Origin: Candidatus Zhuqueibacterota bacterium | Lineage (GTDB): Bacteria > Zhuqueibacterota > Zhuqueibacteria > Residuimicrobiales > Oceaniaggregativiventaceae | Assembly: GCA_014728085.1 (NCBI GenBank) | Contig: WJMF01000144.1 | Location: 1-32,607 of the forward strand | Reading direction: 5' to 3' | Length of the DNA: 32,607 bases | In this document: piece by piece, positions 20,086-30,190 of the stretch | Layout of the letters: each line of letters begins with the position of its first letter | Numbering within the stretch: the stretch's first letter is position 1 | The notes under the pieces: model-generated | Databases searched by the model: none | What the model saw: only the letters and a program-made list of their open reading frames with translations | Told to the model about the DNA's origin: nothing | Made by a program: the position numbers and the translations under genes

Positions 20086-21357
20086 ATGAGCGTAATCAAA
20101 GTCGAAGGATTGTACAAAATATTCGGCCATAACCCTCAACGGGCATTCCCTTTAATCGAAAAGGGAATGTCCAAAGAGGAAGTGCTGGATAAAACCGGAT
20201 GTACAATCGGCATTCATGATGCCAGTTTCGAGATAAAACAAAAAGAGACCTTTGTCATCATGGGGCTGTCGGGCAGCGGCAAATCTACCGTTATCCGCTG
20301 TTTGAACCGCCTCATTGAACCGACAAGAGGTCAGGTTCTTATTGATGGTAAAGACATTGTCAAGATGAACAAAAAAGAGTTGATGCAGGTGAGACGCCGC
20401 AAGCTCTCTATGGTCTTTCAGCACTTTGGACTATTGCCTCAGCGGACCGTGATTGCCAATGTGGAATACGGCCTCGAAATCAGTGGCGTAGACAAGGACG
20501 AAAGAAGAGAAAAAGCTCTCAACGCCATCGAATTGGTGGGATTGAAAGGGTATGAAGAGAGCAAGCCGAGCGAATTGAGCGGTGGCATGCAGCAGCGTGT
20601 TGGATTGGCCAGGGCTCTGGCCAATGATCCTGAGATTCTGCTCATGGATGAAGCGTTTAGTGCTCTCGACCCCCTGATTCGCACGCAGATGCAGGACGAG
20701 TTGCTCGAATTACAGGCCAGGATGCACAAAACTATTGTCTTTATCACGCACGATCTCGATGAAGCCCTGAAAATTGGTGATCGTATTGCCATTATGAAGG
20801 ACGGCAAGGTGGTGCAAATCGGAACTCCGGAGGAGATCCTGACCGAACCTGCCGATGAATATGTTCGCAATTTCATCCAAAATGTCGATCGATCCAAAGT
20901 GATTACCGCATCGACCATTATGCGCAAACCCCCTACGATTACCGTGCCCAAGGAAGGCCCCAATGTGGCTGCTCGCAGAATGGAAAAACACGGCGTTTCC
21001 ACTATTTATGTGGTGGATTCGGATCGGATTTTACAGGGCATTCTGACCATCGATGAAGCCATGAAATTGTCTAAAGAAAATAAAAAATCTGTTGACAAGA
21101 CAACCATCCAGGAAGTCTATGTCACGAATCCGTCTACCTCGGTTGCAGATTTATTACCGACTGCTATGTCAAGCCGTTATCCCCTTGCTGTCGTGGATGA
21201 TGAATATCGACTGGTCGGTATCGTAGACCGCGCCTCGATCATGAATGAAGTGTACGGAGATGTGAGCGATGAATCCACCACTTCTCTTAAAGATTATCTC
21301 AAAGAGGTCAATACAAATGGCGGTTCAGTCGGAACCAAAGAGGAGGCTGAAAAATGA
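20086..21357 (+). CDS. proV: Glycine betaine/proline-type ABC transporter, ATP-binding subunit
   Basis: This 423-residue cytosolic ATPase belongs to the OpuA/ProU osmoprotectant importers. Walker A GLSGSGKST is at 60-68, signature LSGGMQQR at 164-171 and Walker B LLMDEAFSALD just after residue 185. The N-terminal extension before Walker A (FGHNPQRAFPLIEKGMSKEE) is diagnostic of ProV/OpuAA. The C-terminus has a tandem CBS pair (about 270-400), which in OpuA senses ionic strength. The stop overlaps the permease start by 4 bp (ATGA). Substrate could be glycine betaine, proline betaine or choline. Confidence 0.95.
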   Translation: MSVIKVEGLYKIFGHNPQRAFPLIEKGMSKEEVLDKTGCTIGIHDASFEIKQKETFVIMGLSGSGKSTVIRCLNRLIEPTRGQVLIDGKDIVKMNKKELMQVRRRKLSMVFQHFGLLPQRTVIANVEYGLEISGVDKDERREKALNAIELVGLKGYEESKPSELSGGMQQRVGLARALANDPEILLMDEAFSALDPLIRTQMQDELLELQARMHKTIVFITHDLDEALKIGDRIAIMKDGKVVQIGTPEEILTEPADEYVRNFIQNVDRSKVITASTIMRKPPTITVPKEGPNVAARRMEKHGVSTIYVVDSDRILQGILTIDEAMKLSKENKKSVDKTTIQEVYVTNPSTSVADLLPTAMSSRYPLAVVDDEYRLVGIVDRASIMNEVYGDVSDESTTSLKDYLKEVNTNGGSVGTKEEAEK

Positions 21358-22178
21358 TTAATCTAGATGTAGGTGGATTTTTTGAAAATATCATCACCTG
21401 GCTGACAGAAAACCTCGGGTCTGTTTTCGACGCAATCAGCAATTCCGTCTCTTCTATGCTGGATGCGTTTGAAGGGGTGCTGATGTTGCCGCATCCCTTT
21501 ATTCTCATTGCCCTCCTATCAGGACTAGCCTGGTGGGTGGCAAAAAAGGGAGTCGGTATTTTCACTTTGCTCGGATTGCTGTTGATCTATTCGATGGGGT
21601 ATTGGGTTCCCACGATGGAGACCCTCGCGCTCGTCATTACTTCAGTGGTCCTGGCGCTCGTCATAGGAATCCCGATCGGTATTTGGGCTTCAAAAAGCGA
21701 TATTGTGGAAAATATTATGCGGCCTATCCTAGATTTTATGCAGACACTGCCAGCCTTTGTCTATCTTATCCCCGCAGTTCTGTTTTTTAAATTGGGTGAA
21801 GTCCCTGGGGTGATCTCGACCTTGATTTTTTCCATCCCCCCCACAGTAAGACTGACCAATCTGGGCATTCGACAGGTTCCCTCTGATATTAAAGAGGCTG
21901 CTCAGGCATTTGGGTCCACTCCCAATCAGCAGTTATTTAAAGCTGAACTGCCTGTGGCTTTACCCACCATCATGGCCGGAGTCAATCAGACGATTATGCT
22001 CGCTCTGTCCATGGTCGTAATCGCTGGAATGATCGGGGCCGGAGGCCTGGGAAACGAGGTGCTGAAAGGCATCACCCAGCTGCGTATCGATGTTGGATTC
22101 GAAGCCGGTATATCTATCGTTATTCTGGCTATCTTTTTGGATCGGGTAACCCATGCCCTTGGAGTATCCGCAAAATAG
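21354..22178 (+). CDS. proW: Glycine betaine/proline-type ABC transporter, permease subunit
   Basis: This 274-residue inner-membrane permease has an amphipathic N-terminal helix and about six membrane helices. The coupling loop is visible around EAAQAFGSTPNQQLFKAELP, matching the EAA motif of ProW/OpuAB. The preceding segment PILDFMQTLPAFVYLIPA is highly typical of ProW. It is translationally coupled to proV and followed 30 bp later by the binding-protein gene. It forms the membrane channel of the importer. Confidence 0.95.
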   Translation: MINLDVGGFFENIITWLTENLGSVFDAISNSVSSMLDAFEGVLMLPHPFILIALLSGLAWWVAKKGVGIFTLLGLLLIYSMGYWVPTMETLALVITSVVLALVIGIPIGIWASKSDIVENIMRPILDFMQTLPAFVYLIPAVLFFKLGEVPGVISTLIFSIPPTVRLTNLGIRQVPSDIKEAAQAFGSTPNQQLFKAELPVALPTIMAGVNQTIMLALSMVVIAGMIGAGGLGNEVLKGITQLRIDVGFEAGISIVILAIFLDRVTHALGVSAK

Positions 22179-22208
22179 AGTCGAATTTTTTTATCCTAAG
22201 GAGGTTTT

Positions 22209-23093
22209 ATGAAACGTCTAAATGTAATTCCCAAGCTTTTAGCTTTAACTCTGATCATGTCTTTCGCATCATTTTGGTTTGCCTGTGGTGGACCCGGTGC
22301 TGTTGATGAAAAATCAGCAGATCTGGTCTATGTCAACTGGGCCGAAGGGGTGGCTTATACGCATGTCGCTAAAGCAGTTCTTGAAGAGAAAATGGGGTAT
22401 ACCGTAAATCTGACCGCTGCTGATGTCGGCCCAGCCTATACGTCAGTCGCTCAGGGTGATCAGGATGCCTTTATGGAAACCTGGTTGCCGGTATTGCATG
22501 CCGATTATGTGGAAACTTATCAAGATGATATTATTGACCTTGGTCATATTTATGAAGGTACAAGGAGCGGTCTGGTTGTGCCTGCCTATGTAACCATTGA
22601 CAAAATTTCCGAACTCAATCAGCATGCAGATAAATTCGATGGCCAGATTATCGGTATCGATGCCGGTGCCGGAGTTATGAAAACAACGGAAAATGTCATC
22701 GAACAGTATAATCTCGATTTCGAATTGGTCGCCTCCAGTGGTCCGGCCATGACCGCCGCATTGCAGGATGCCATTACCAATGAAGAATGGGTCGTTGTCA
22801 CCGGCTGGAAGCCGCACTGGATGTTTGGTCGCTGGGATCTCAAATTTTTGGAACAGGACGAGGATAAAATGCTCTGGAAATCGGGCAATATCCATATCAT
22901 GGGCCGGAAAAATCTCAGAGAAGAAAAGCCAGAGTTGGCGCAATTTCTGGAAAATATGTTTTTGACTGATCCTCAACTCGCGGATTTGATGCTGCAAGTC
23001 AAAGAGTCCGATGAGGAAGTCGAAGTTGTCACCCGGAATTGGATGAATGCCAATATGGACATTATCGAACAGTGGATGCCAGATAATATGTAG
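22209..23093 (+). CDS. proX: Glycine betaine-type ABC transporter, substrate-binding lipoprotein
   Basis: This 294-residue OpuAC/ProX-type binding protein has an N-terminal signal that ends SFWFAC, with the Cys as the probable lipid-anchored residue, although the lipobox is not canonical. The mature start carries VNWAEGVAYTHVAKAVLEE, typical of OpuAC proteins that cage betaine with aromatic residues. Further Trp residues occur at GWKPHWMFGRWDLKFL. An AGGAGG ribosome binding site is perfectly placed. It is the last gene of the operon, closed by a strong terminator 28 bp downstream. Confidence 0.94.
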   Translation: MKRLNVIPKLLALTLIMSFASFWFACGGPGAVDEKSADLVYVNWAEGVAYTHVAKAVLEEKMGYTVNLTAADVGPAYTSVAQGDQDAFMETWLPVLHADYVETYQDDIIDLGHIYEGTRSGLVVPAYVTIDKISELNQHADKFDGQIIGIDAGAGVMKTTENVIEQYNLDFELVASSGPAMTAALQDAITNEEWVVVTGWKPHWMFGRWDLKFLEQDEDKMLWKSGNIHIMGRKNLREEKPELAQFLENMFLTDPQLADLMLQVKESDEEVEVVTRNWMNANMDIIEQWMPDNM

Positions 23094-23168: not shown

Positions 23169-23864
23169 CTAGTCGATCTCTTTGAGACGAATATTGCGCC
23201 ATCGTACCGAATACGGACCGCGCACCCCCACCCCGTGCACTTGTAGTCCGATGACTCCTTTTGAACTCATCGAGTCTTTGAAATCTGCACAGGGGATACC
23301 ATTGATAAATGTTTTGATGGATGATTCCCTGCACTCGACACGATATTGATTCCATTCCCCATCTTTGAAGGCTTTGCTGGCTTTGGCATCATTGGATACA
23401 TCTTGGAGGAAGAAACGTCTCCGGGCTTCGTCATAGACCCCACCCGAGGTTCCATTCTCCTGTGCTGAGATTTCCACCTGATAGCCATAAAGCCGGTCTT
23501 TGTCCAGTGTCCAGGTCTTTGGCTTGCCATCATTATCCCGGAAAATAAATACCATTTCTTGCGGTGCAATGTGACTGCGAAACTGCACGCCCGAGTTGAG
23601 TTCCGGGTCATCGAGCATGACCTCGAATTCCAAAATGAAATCATCATACTCTTTGTCGGTACACAAAAAAGTGTTCGGACTGTTTTTTGCTGTGGTGCCT
23701 ACGATCACACCTTCTTCAACCTCGTAGGTCGCAAAGCCGCTGTGGACAGACCATCCTTTAAGTGATTTTCCATTAAACAGGTCTACCCATTCTTGAGGCC
23801 ATACCGTACTCGCAAACAGCAAAATCCAGATGGCCATCCCTGATACGGTTCTGTTTTTGAACAT
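23169..23864 (-). CDS. Secreted DUF1080 protein (3-keto-disaccharide hydrolase-like)
   Basis: This protein of about 231 residues has a signal peptide (TVSGMAIWILLFASTVWPQ) and then the DUF1080 opening EWVDLFNGKSLKGW. The family has a concanavalin/GH16-like beta-sandwich fold. It has been linked to lyase or hydrolase cleavage of 3-keto-glycosides. Typical segments DFILEFEVMLDDPELNSGVQ and VIGLQVHG are present. I chose ATG 23864, which has CAGGAGA 7 bp upstream, over the longer frame from 23894 that runs into the upstream gene. It follows the exported Gfo/Idh/MocA gene by 13 bp, so both probably act on the same sugar outside the cytosol. Confidence 0.88.
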   Translation of the reverse strand: MFKNRTVSGMAIWILLFASTVWPQEWVDLFNGKSLKGWSVHSGFATYEVEEGVIVGTTAKNSPNTFLCTDKEYDDFILEFEVMLDDPELNSGVQFRSHIAPQEMVFIFRDNDGKPKTWTLDKDRLYGYQVEISAQENGTSGGVYDEARRRFFLQDVSNDAKASKAFKDGEWNQYRVECRESSIKTFINGIPCADFKDSMSSKGVIGLQVHGVGVRGPYSVRWRNIRLKEID

Positions 23865-23877
23865 AATTTTCTCCTGG

Positions 23878-25293
23878 TTATAATGTCCATCCATTATGAT
23901 AATCCGGACGAATCCATGACTCTACCTCCGGGTGATTGACAATGGTCATCGTGTCTGCATCCCAATAGATTCTTTCTTCCAGACGGATCGCCATGACACC
24001 CAAAAGCACCAGTTGTGTCAGAGGCCCGGAATAAGAAAAATCTGCACCTGTTTTTTGTCCGGATTTGCAGCCATTTATCCATTCACGATGCGGGCCCTCT
24101 ACACGGGGCAGTGTTTTTCGTGGTAAAGAGTAATTCTGCATGTGTTTTTCGGGAATGAGTCTTGGAGAACCTGCCCACCCCCCACACACCATTTTGCCTT
24201 TGTCGCCGATAAACAATATTCCGTTATCGCGTTCTCCCAGTTGGCGTCCTGGCTCCAGTTCTTTTGGCCTGGGGGGTGTCAAGCCAGAATACCAGGTCAG
24301 GTCCAGCGAATCCCTCGTCTCGGTTGCTTTGAAATGATATGTGACGATCGAGGCAAACGGACGTTTATCCTTGTCTCCCCAGGCCGAGCGCGCTTCTATC
24401 CATTCAGGGTGCCTCAAATCCATTGCAAAAAAAGCCGGATCCATATTATGACATCCCATATCGCCGATTTTACCGGTGCCAAAATCCCAAAAGTCGCGCC
24501 AGCGTACCGGCGTATAGGCAGGATGATAGGGACGATATTCTGCTGGTCCCAGCCATAACCTCCAGTCCAGGCCCCGTGGCACCGGTGGATGGCCTTGTGG
24601 TTGTCCCTCCAGGCACCCCGATCTGCTGGCACTGGAACTCCAGGCATGAATTTCTCTGACCTGGCCGATCGCGCCATCCCAAAGCCACTCGGCGGTTAGC
24701 CGCAATCCCTCTCCGGCATGTCCCTGAATCCCCATTTGGGTAATGACTCTTGATTGATCAGCCATTTCAACGAGTTTTCGAGTTTCATAGAGCGTGCGAG
24801 CCAGGGGTTTTTCCAGATAAACATGTTTGCCTCTTTGCATACATGCTATGGCAGCGACATAGTGAGTGTGATCCGGGATAGAAATGATCACCGCATCGAT
24901 CTCTTTGACCTGATCGAGCATATCTCTAAAGTCGACAAACCCTTTACACCGCGGGGTGTGTTTGGATTTATTTTGTTGATCGTGGGTGGTGATGAGCTGC
25001 AAGCCTGGCTCTCGTCCTCCCGGGTCCTTGAAATACCATTGACTGTAATCCGCCTTTTCGGTGACATCTGCCAGGGCAATCACCTGCACATCCTCAAAGG
25101 GAAGAATCGATTTCAGGTTTCTCATTCCCTGTCCGCCGGTACCGATCATGGCGATGTTGAGTTTATCAGAGGGAGCTGTATAACCCTGTCCTCCCAGGAC
25201 GTGACGCGGCACCAGGGTGATGCCGGCCCATGCACTCAAGCCCGATTTGAGGAGTTGTCGGCGGGAAATAGCCGAGTCATGACGTTTTTGCAT
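23878..25293 (-). CDS. Tat-exported Gfo/Idh/MocA-family oxidoreductase
   Basis: This 471-residue protein starts with a Tat signal (SRRQLLKSGLSAWAGITLVP). The dinucleotide loop MIGTGGQG is at 49-56 and EKP at 161-163. A C-terminal domain has GKIGDMGCHNMDPAFFA, as in the periplasmic members abundant in Planctomycetota and FCB bacteria. Such exported members are thought to carry tightly bound NAD(H) and oxidise sugar hydroxyls. Pairing with the DUF1080 gene fits the proposed 3-keto-glycoside route, in which oxidation at C3 precedes bond cleavage. That pathway role is inference. Confidence 0.9.
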   Translation of the reverse strand: MQKRHDSAISRRQLLKSGLSAWAGITLVPRHVLGGQGYTAPSDKLNIAMIGTGGQGMRNLKSILPFEDVQVIALADVTEKADYSQWYFKDPGGREPGLQLITTHDQQNKSKHTPRCKGFVDFRDMLDQVKEIDAVIISIPDHTHYVAAIACMQRGKHVYLEKPLARTLYETRKLVEMADQSRVITQMGIQGHAGEGLRLTAEWLWDGAIGQVREIHAWSSSASRSGCLEGQPQGHPPVPRGLDWRLWLGPAEYRPYHPAYTPVRWRDFWDFGTGKIGDMGCHNMDPAFFAMDLRHPEWIEARSAWGDKDKRPFASIVTYHFKATETRDSLDLTWYSGLTPPRPKELEPGRQLGERDNGILFIGDKGKMVCGGWAGSPRLIPEKHMQNYSLPRKTLPRVEGPHREWINGCKSGQKTGADFSYSGPLTQLVLLGVMAIRLEERIYWDADTMTIVNHPEVESWIRPDYHNGWTL

Positions 25294-27392: not shown

Positions 27393-27420
27393 TGAGCCGT
27401 CATTTTATATGGACGGCTCA
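27393..27420 (-). terminator. Hairpin terminator overlapping the selD stop
   Basis: A 9-bp stem (TGAGCCGTC with GACGGCTCA) encloses a 10-base AT-rich loop. On the minus strand the first stem base is the selD stop codon itself. The tail CTCTCTTTCC is only weakly U-rich, so efficiency is uncertain. Confidence 0.55.
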
Positions 27421-28473
27421 TACAATATACAAAAATTTATCTTTGAGCGGTTGCACCGAGCCAATGAGTATGGCCGGCACCCGGGCGGTTTGCAATGCAG
27501 CTTTGATATCATTTTGACGTTCAGGGGGTACGGAAATCAGCAGTCCTCCGGAAGTTTGCGGGTCGTTGAGGATAAATTTTTGATCCTCATTCAGATGGGA
27601 GGCATAGGAGACACTGGGTTCGGTATAGAGTCTGTTCGCTTTGGTGCCGCCGGGGATGAATTTTTTTGCTGTGGTTTCCATGGCATAGTCCAGAATGGGG
27701 ACCCGGTTATATTCTATTTCCAGCGAAACCTTGCTGCCTTTGGCCATTTCCATGGCATGGCCCAACAATCCAAAACCCGTAATATCGGTACAGGCATTGG
27801 CCTCAACCGCAATTGCGACTTCAGACGCACGTCGATTTAACACTGACATGATCTCCGACACATAGGTTTCCATATCCGCGGATCCTTTGCCTGCTTTCAG
27901 GCAGGTGGTGATGGTTCCGGTGCCAATGGGTTTGGTGAGGTACAAGAGGTCACCTGCTTTGGCATGGCTGTTGGTCAGGATCGAATGGGGATTAACAATA
28001 CCTGTAACAGCCATACCGTATTTCAACTCGTCATCGCTGATCGTGTGGCCGCCAATGACCGCCACACCCGCTTCCAGGGCCTTGTCTTGTCCGCCTCGAA
28101 GAATTTCTCCGAGTATTTCCATGGGAAAGATATCTCTGGGAAATCCCACGATGTTCAGGGCGGACAATGGTTTGCCACCCATGGCATAGACATCGCTCAG
28201 CGAATTCGCGGCTGAAATCTGTCCGTACATATAGGGATCATCGACGATGGGGGTGAAAATATCTACAGTCTGCACCAGTGCGATCTCATCGTTCAGCTTG
28301 ATCACACCGGCATCGTCGGCGGTATTGAATCCCACGAGAACGCGTGGGTCGTGTTGGGTTGGCAGCTTTTCCAAAGCTGCGGCCAGCTCATGCGGCGCAA
28401 TTTTGGATGCTCAGCCAGCGCACTTTACTGTTTCGGTCAGGCGTTTGTGTTTTTTCAGGTCTGGATTTAGCAT
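27418..28473 (-). CDS. selD: Selenide, water dikinase, a selenoprotein with in-frame UGA (Sec21)
   Basis: SelD makes selenophosphate from selenide and ATP, the selenium donor for selenocysteine synthesis. The uninterrupted frame starts only at 28374, but the family's conserved N-terminus lies upstream in the same frame, across a TGA at 28411-28413. Reading TGA as Sec gives LTETVKCAGUASKIAP from ATG 28473. U21 and K24 align with catalytic Cys17 and Lys20 of E. coli SelD. The full protein is 351 residues, normal for the family. ADDAGVIKL and SLSDVYAMGGKPL supply ATP and metal ligands. A candidate SECIS hairpin follows the UGA. The gene starts 9 bp after the asparaginase stop. It implies selA, selB and tRNA-Sec elsewhere in the genome. 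Confidence 0.93.
28377..28400 (-). promoter_or_regulatory. Candidate bacterial SECIS element in selD
   Basis: Counting from the base after the UGA, nucleotides +11 to +34 can fold with UUGCG pairing CGCAG, then CC with GG past a bulged C, then GC with GC past a bulged U, around an AUGA loop at +20. Bacterial SECIS elements sit within the coding region just downstream of the UGA, with the apical loop about 16-37 nt away, so position and shape fit. A second hairpin (CAGCUUU with AAAGCUG) lies immediately downstream. This is a hand fold only. Confidence 0.45.
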
Positions 28474-28482
28474 AGGATTTTG

Positions 28483-29496
28483 TTATATTTTGACTTGTTT
28501 ACCATTAATGTATTGCATTCCTTTGGAAGAGATTGCAGAGCAGATTGGTCCTTTGATGGGTTTGAACTGGGCACAGCCGATCTGTCCTTTTTTATTGATG
28601 GCGATATATTTGACATTAAAGTCTATATCGGTATTCACCTGGGCGATCCGTTTCAATGCGTATTCGCATGCTTGTTGGGGAGACATCCCGTCCCGCATTT
28701 TTTCTACGATGAGAAAAGAACCGCACGTCCGAATTACCTCTTCGCCTCGTCCGGTGGCACCGGCTGCACCGACAGTATTGTCGAGATAGAGTCCGGCCCC
28801 GATGATCGGCGAGTCGCCGACGCGTCCGGGGATCTTGTATGCGAGTCCGGAAGTCGTGGTAATGCCAAAGACATTGCCCTGATCATCGATTCCGAGGACA
28901 TTGATGGTGCCGGTAATACGTTCGTTATTGCGGGACGTGTCGTGATCGGCCGGAAGCCAGTCATCGCGTTCACTGAGCGTCTCTTTCCATCTCAGCCATT
29001 CGATGCGTGACTTTTCGGTCAGGAGGTTTTCTTTTTTGAATCCATGAGCCCGGGCAAACCGGTAGGCATCTTTACCGACGAGCATGATATGGTCTGTTCG
29101 TTCCATGACGAGTCGGGCGACAGAGCTGGCATGGACGATATTTTCCAGTGCAGCCACAGATCCGCAACGATGGCCCGGCCCTTTCATGATCGAGGCATCG
29201 AGGGTCACTTTACCTTCTTCATTTGGCAGGCCCCCGTATCCGACAGAATTATCGTCGGGATCTTGTTCGACGACATTGGCACCGGTTTCGACAGCATCGA
29301 GCATATTTTGCGAGGTCAGCCATTTTTGCCATGCGGGTTGCAGGACCCGTTCGCCCCATTTACGACCGCGGCTGCAGATCATGACAGGGAGGAGAACCCG
29401 GACCTGTTGTTCTGCTCGGGACTTGTTTGCCCCCAGTGACAGGGCACTCAGCGTAAGGCTTTTTTTAACAAAGGTTCGTCTGTCAAAAGATTTCAT
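28483..29496 (-). CDS. Exported N4-(beta-N-acetylglucosaminyl)-L-asparaginase-like Ntn hydrolase
   Basis: This 337-residue enzyme of the glycosylasparaginase (type 2 asparaginase) family is made as a precursor that self-cleaves before a Thr nucleophile. The likely site is Thr197 in GTINVLGID. Downstream IPGRVGDSPIIGAG and DNTVGAAGATGRGE match the substrate-binding segments of human aspartylglucosaminidase. The residue before the Thr is Gly where many members have Asp. The N-terminus (SFDRRTFVKKSLTLSALSLG) is a Tat-type signal, so it acts in the periplasm, probably on GlcNAc-Asn from glycoproteins. I chose ATG 29496 at the signal, not the longer frame from 29559 that lies in the promoter. selD follows 9 bp later. 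Confidence 0.88.
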   Translation of the reverse strand: MKSFDRRTFVKKSLTLSALSLGANKSRAEQQVRVLLPVMICSRGRKWGERVLQPAWQKWLTSQNMLDAVETGANVVEQDPDDNSVGYGGLPNEEGKVTLDASIMKGPGHRCGSVAALENIVHASSVARLVMERTDHIMLVGKDAYRFARAHGFKKENLLTEKSRIEWLRWKETLSERDDWLPADHDTSRNNERITGTINVLGIDDQGNVFGITTTSGLAYKIPGRVGDSPIIGAGLYLDNTVGAAGATGRGEEVIRTCGSFLIVEKMRDGMSPQQACEYALKRIAQVNTDIDFNVKYIAINKKGQIGCAQFKPIKGPICSAISSKGMQYINGKQVKI

Positions 29497-29530
29497 TCTG
29501 GTCCTGTGGATTTTCTTGACATTGATCATA

Positions 29531-29559
29531 ATTATACTTAATTTTGCCATCAAAATCAA
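29531..29559 (-). promoter_or_regulatory. Sigma70-like promoter of the asparaginase-selD operon
   Basis: On the minus strand TTGATT (29554-29559) is followed after exactly 17 bp by a perfect TATAAT (29531-29536). It lies 35 bp before the chosen start codon at 29496, which also argues against the longer frame that would begin at 29559. Confidence 0.75.
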
Positions 29560-29899: not shown

Positions 29900-29974
29900 G
29901 GGCTGTTAGCTCAGCTGGTTTAGAGCGCCTGCCTTACAAGCAGGAGGTCACTGGTTCGAATCCAGTACGGCCCA
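29900..29974 (+). tRNA. tRNA-Val(TAC)
   Basis: The sequence folds as a complete cloverleaf. The acceptor GGGCTGT pairs with ACGGCCC (one G-U), D arm GCTC/GAGC, anticodon stem CCTGC/GCAGG with loop CTTACAA giving anticodon TAC, and T arm ACTGG/CCAGT with TTCGAAT. The discriminator is A and no CCA is encoded (CTA follows). It reads GUA valine codons. The first base abuts the stop codon of the upstream small CDS. Confidence 0.95.
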
Positions 29975-29997
29975 CTAGGTGACAACGTTTTATATAC

Positions 29998-30033
29998 GGG
30001 GACATAGTGCGGATTGGTTAGCACATCCCGAAC
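29998..30033 (+). repeat. Truncated tRNA-Asp-like repeat, copy 1
   Basis: About 28 bases resemble the acceptor-to-D-arm half of the intact tRNA-Asp downstream (GGGGACATAGTGC...TTGGTTAGCAC). The sequence then turns into ATCCCGAAC instead of the anticodon stem. There is no T arm or 3' acceptor strand, so this is not a functional tRNA. It starts 57 bp before copy 2. Confidence 0.8.
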
Positions 30034-30054
30034 GATAAGTTTTGAATTATATAC

Positions 30055-30089
30055 GGGGACATAGTGCAGTTGGTTAGCACATCCCGAAC
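30055..30089 (+). repeat. Truncated tRNA-Asp-like repeat, copy 2
   Basis: This is nearly identical to copy 1, including the ATCCCGAAC ending and the following ATAA(A)GTTTGA spacer. It starts 56 bp before the intact tRNA-Asp, so the three tRNA-like 5' halves form a regular 56-57 bp tandem array. Confidence 0.8.
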
Positions 30090-30110
30090 TATAAAGTTTG
30101 ATACAGATAC

Positions 30111-30184
30111 GGGGTCGTAGTGCAGTTGGTTAGCACACCGGCCTGTCAAGCCGGAGGTCGCGGGTTCAAGTCCCGTCGGCCCCG
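30111..30184 (+). tRNA. tRNA-Asp(GTC)
   Basis: This is a complete cloverleaf. Acceptor GGGGTCG pairs with CGGCCCC, D arm GTGC/GCAC, anticodon stem CCGGC/GCCGG with loop CTGTCAA giving GTC, and T arm GCGGG/CCCGT with TTCAAGT. The discriminator is G and CCA is not encoded. It is the third unit of the 56-57 bp array and the only intact one. Confidence 0.96.
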
Positions 30185-30190
30185 CCCATA

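Follow-up and report, generated by a model that had tools for sequence, protein, structure and literature searches.

The window, by which we mean the whole 32,607-nucleotide stretch of DNA analyzed, is contig C53 of a 5.19-Mb draft genome (244 contigs, 97.9% complete). It carries on its minus strand a selD gene interrupted by one in-frame TGA, with an asparaginase-like gene immediately upstream. The features discussed below are the following.

27418–28473, minus strand: selD(Sec), predicted selenophosphate synthetase of 351 aa, with AIRS and AIRS_C domains (TIGR00476, 384 bits); start ATG 28473, stop TGA 27420–27418
28420–28422, minus strand: Cys18 codon, forming a CxxU motif (C-A-G-U) with codon 21
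28411–28413, minus strand: codon 21, the in-frame TGA and predicted selenocysteine codon, at the position of E. coli Cys17; TGA kept in all 39 loci fetched from class relatives
28402–28404, minus strand: Lys24 codon, aligned to E. coli Lys20
28382–28396, minus strand: helix 1, the proximal SECIS-like hairpin, of which the window copy keeps 4 bp; loop about 18 nt after the UGA
28362–28380, minus strand: helix 2, the distal SECIS-like hairpin, of 8 bp; GGA loop 38 nt after the UGA; found in the order-level clade
28483–29559, minus strand: asparaginase-2/glycosylasparaginase-like gene (PF01112, 230 bits), upstream of selD with a 9 nt gap

The original prediction had proposed that selD is itself a selenoprotein gene, running from ATG 28473 to 27418 and encoding LTETVKCAGUASKIAP near its start. 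Both the coordinates and the translation proved exact. The 351-codon frame contains a single internal TGA and also uses TGA as its terminator. Aligned to SelD profiles, as had been suggested, it scored as a full-length SelD on both TIGR00476 (cut-off 125 bits, profile positions 1–310 matched) and NF002098 (339 bits, cut-off 299), and the match ran on through the codons either side of the TGA. Against E. coli SelD (3u0o), the phmmer alignment of the N-terminus was gap-free over RLTETVKCAGUASKIAP (RLTQYSHGAGCGCKISP). This placed U21 at Cys17 and K24 at Lys20, as predicted, with Ser in place of E. coli Cys19. A plain table-11 ORF listing gave only the uninterrupted frame from TTG 28374 to 27418, a 318-aa product without the catalytic loop. 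The expected truncation by 33 residues therefore holds for a plain table-11 caller but not for Sec-aware callers such as Selenoprofiles (PMC4561486).

The asparaginase-like gene probably shares an operon with the window selD. In this genome the only homologue found for it immediately precedes a second Sec-type selD on contig C27, and the asparaginase-selD(Sec) pair recurs in three relatives (G004, G013 and G009) and as a fragment in a fourth (G007). By gene order it looks like a lineage-specific operon. We know of no functional tie of the asparaginase-like gene to selenium. The N-terminus of the C27 asparaginase-like protein resembles a Tat signal. Elsewhere in the window are two plus-strand tRNA genes, tRNA-Val(tac) and tRNA-Asp(gtc) (29900–30188), choline/glycine-betaine ABC transporter genes for an ATPase, a permease and a binding protein (20086–23093), and adjoining genes resembling 3-keto-disaccharide hydrolase and Gfo/Idh/MocA glycoside 3-dehydrogenase (23169–25293).

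Conservation of the TGA was examined with the SelD profile and its cut-off in 60 genomes, comprising this genome and 59 relatives from the class. A SelD match above cut-off with exactly one internal TGA was present in 41 of the 59 relatives. Loci were fetched for 39 of these 41, and all 39 had TGA at the catalytic codon. The C27 gene (L003, G000:C27:102642–104614) has its own in-frame TGA and is 64% identical to the window copy. Similar TGA-containing SelDs occur in Bacillota, Campylobacterota, Chloroflexota and Deltaproteobacteria. Near sequence hits also included Calditrichaceae, and the window is accordingly placed in the Caldithrix class of Calditrichota. The in-frame UGA is thus both conserved and aligned to Cys or Sec of homologues.

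A complete Sec system had been predicted for the organism, and a search of the rest of the genome recovered all of it above cut-off: selA on C172 (563 bits, cut-off 268), selB on C165 (352 bits, cut-off 242) and tRNA-Sec on C230 (68.5 bits, cut-off 47; anticodon TCA, read UCA). Two peroxiredoxin-family frames with an internal TGA are further candidate selenoproteins (L178:768–1340 and L179:785–1519). The sequences around their TGA codons read RGFMUPHC and FTFVUATE, respectively, and we take the TGA in both to mark the peroxidatic position. A formate dehydrogenase alpha-like match was rejected as a selenoprotein, having no internal stop and a score below cut-off. The genome search returned no SelW-like or CMD/AhpD family members. 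It also gave no selenouridine synthase (TIGR03167) match above cut-off, so a use of selenophosphate for tRNA selenouridine is not obvious.

RNA structure after the UGA was assessed by folding. Shuffles preserving dinucleotides alone gave no more than a hint of structure (window copy z -2.2, C27 copy z -0.3), and we therefore used codon-preserving shuffles, in which the protein is kept and synonymous codons are drawn from the same gene. For the 51 nt (17 codons) after the TGA of the window copy, z was -3.7, with 0 of 300 shuffles as stable. The same 17 codons gave a mean z of -1.82 in the order (n=12, p 0.0002) and -1.38 in the rest of the class (n=25, p 2e-6). The 17 codons that follow were near zero (mean z 0.02 and -0.22, respectively), and a control stretch 40 codons downstream showed mild structure (-0.88 for the order, -0.52 for the class). 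At the equivalent position of Cys-type SelD fusions, described below, z was only -0.40. Covariation in the two helices amounted to 35 double-changed cells against 15.4 expected, a value reached in 0 of 500 shuffles, and theirs was the best register of all slides. Helix 1 is common to the class, with double changes at five of its seven pairs, some of them clade-wide and so maybe few events; helix 2 is a feature of the order. Codon-controlled folding and covariation thus both point to structured RNA after the UGA.

Like bacterial SECIS (bSECIS) elements, these hairpins lie in the coding region right after the UGA and can present a small loop with GG. Published bSECIS constraints are a G in the first two loop positions and a UGA-to-loop distance of 16–37 nt (PMC13188914). 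The order differs in having two hairpins, the stronger at the far edge of this range. In the window copy, the GGA loop of helix 2 stands at 38 nt, one beyond the published limit, and the loop of helix 1 is suitably placed but lacks G at its first two positions. In the C27 paralogue, helix 1 has a GGA loop at 20 nt, in line with both constraints. As judged from sequence, the match of the window copy to the bSECIS consensus is imperfect, and a scan of the window against Rfam, at its gathering scores, returned no SECIS family.

We put at about 95% the probability that 28473–27418 encodes a selenocysteine-containing selenophosphate synthetase, Sec insertion and enzyme activity being ascribed by analogy with studied SelDs. 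A miscalled TGC or TGT, or a true nonsense mutation in a pseudogene, would need one base change in a draft assembly of 244 contigs. The same TGA nevertheless stands in every one of the 39 loci from other assemblies, which excludes an assembly error for practical purposes and contradicts the sequencing error that the original prediction had named among the findings that would refute it. It stands also in the divergent C27 copy, and the 351 codons hold no other lesion; conservation of the TGA already refutes this reading, whose probability we regard as negligible. Translation from TTG 28374 alone, yielding the 318-aa protein, would fit the uninterrupted frame and the lack of an obvious Shine-Dalgarno sequence upstream of ATG 28473. 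That TTG, however, sits inside helix 2, the 8-bp GGA hairpin, and the codons preceding it are conserved at the protein level across phyla, making exclusive use of this start very improbable; a minor internal product may arise from it. Decoding of the UGA as another amino acid, or plain readthrough, has a precedent in the Sec-free readthrough proposed for insect SPS1-UGA (PMC4561486). We give it scarcely any credence here, given the complete selA/selB/tRNA-Sec set, termination of the same gene at UGA, and an internal UGA that stands opposite Cys in homologues, with structured RNA just downstream.

The genome encodes three SelDs: the two Sec-type CxxU proteins of C53 and C27, and a Cys-type protein on C33 (L001, G000:C33:26406–27326); remaining TIGR00476 matches were weak and below cut-off. 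The C33 frame encodes 740 aa, joining a NifS/IscS-type desulfurase (PF00266 at 8–367) to SelD (TIGR00476 at 397–703) with the catalytic motif GLGCACK. Such a NifS-SelD(Cys) fusion is present in at least 26 of the 60 class genomes, this one and 25 relatives in which it was confirmed by homology of the desulfurase half (further loci L031–L053, L055 and L058). Fifteen of the 26 also have a TGA-containing SelD above cut-off. Another 27 relatives with a Sec-SelD lack a verified fusion, many of them fragmented MAGs; the number falls to 24 on leaving out G005, G009 and G056, whose Cys-type pieces are unchecked or sit at a contig edge. A tree of 93 SelDs placed the fusions in one clade and the Sec-SelDs of the order in another. 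Both Sec-SelDs of this genome fall in the order-level clade without being sisters, the window copy grouping with that of G007 (98/85). At one contig end (L099, G008:C25:1–3500), the first 120 residues of a SelD resemble the Cys fusions (66–75% identity) and the rest resembles the Sec-SelD of the genus mate G004 (72–83%). This sequence pattern may stem from recombination that replaced Sec by Cys, or from a chimeric contig end.

Sec-containing SelD is a common and long-known form of the enzyme. A 2015 survey put its share at 19% of prokaryotic SelDs (PMC4561486), and among prokaryotic selenoprotein families only one is more widespread than SelD (PMC13188914). As in Pasteurellales, clostridia, Campylobacterota and vertebrate SEPHS2, the Sec of the window protein occupies the one position at which it is always found in this enzyme, and Cys homologues are common. 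The window SelD differs in its CxxU motif (CAGU), found in about 5.6% of single-domain Sec-SelDs (PMC2398784), in the Ser at E. coli Cys19 and in the presence of two such genes in one genome. NifS-SelD fusions built like the C33 gene, with the desulfurase domain N-terminal to SelD, have been recorded twice among 8,263 prokaryotic genomes, in Geobacter sp. FRC-32 and a second prokaryote (2015 survey, PMC4561486); another paper lists one, in Geobacter, with CxxU (PMC2398784). Whereas the Geobacter fusion carries Sec, the class fusions read here all carry Cys (GLGCACK), and they often co-occur with a separate Sec-SelD. Our literature text search for NifS-SelD returned PMC4561486 only, and further reports outside the searched set are possible.

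The Sec-SelD copies might be specialized, for example tied to the neighboring asparaginase, with the NifS-SelD(Cys) fusion as the main source of selenophosphate. Three SelDs in one genome would suit such a division, as would the repeated asparaginase-selD(Sec) pairing, twice here, in three relatives and partially in a fourth, and the existence of fusion-only genomes with selA (G011, G024, G026 and G036). Against it, the Sec-SelDs keep their catalytic residues, and G010, G025 and G030 have a Sec-SelD as their only SelD together with a full selA, so that Sec-SelD alone seems enough there. We consider specialization unlikely.

With the window gene read as a Sec-SelD, established biochemistry suggests that SelB, directed by the hairpin or hairpins downstream, would deliver Sec-tRNA-Sec at the UGA, and that the finished enzyme would make selenophosphate from selenide and ATP for SelA. 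From gene content, the NifS-SelD(Cys) fusion would use its desulfurase half to draw selenium from Sec/Cys, setting the pathway in motion, and the Sec-SelD copies would form a selenium-dependent second tier. Having Cys at its catalytic position, the fusion needs no Sec for its own synthesis. We infer that it can start selenophosphate synthesis, freeing Sec-SelD from the need for its own product. Tentatively, and as a possibility short of an even chance, Calditrichota would supply selenophosphate in two tiers: a widespread NifS-SelD(Cys) starter drawing directly on Sec/Cys, plus one or two Sec-needing SelDs that track selenium supply, with fusion and stand-alone genes sometimes recombining and changing Sec to Cys.

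A literature search combining Calditrich* with selenoprotein found nothing relevant. The present analysis points strongly to selenocysteine use in a phylum that has received little study, and it restores the full length of a gene cut short by plain callers. The window gene is a further case of the textbook Sec-SelD; it is the mixture of SelDs that deserves further attention. Co-occurrence of a Cys fusion with Sec-SelD bears on how an enzyme that needs its own product is first made, and on the delivery of selenium to SelD in cells, a step described as incompletely elucidated (PMC13188914).
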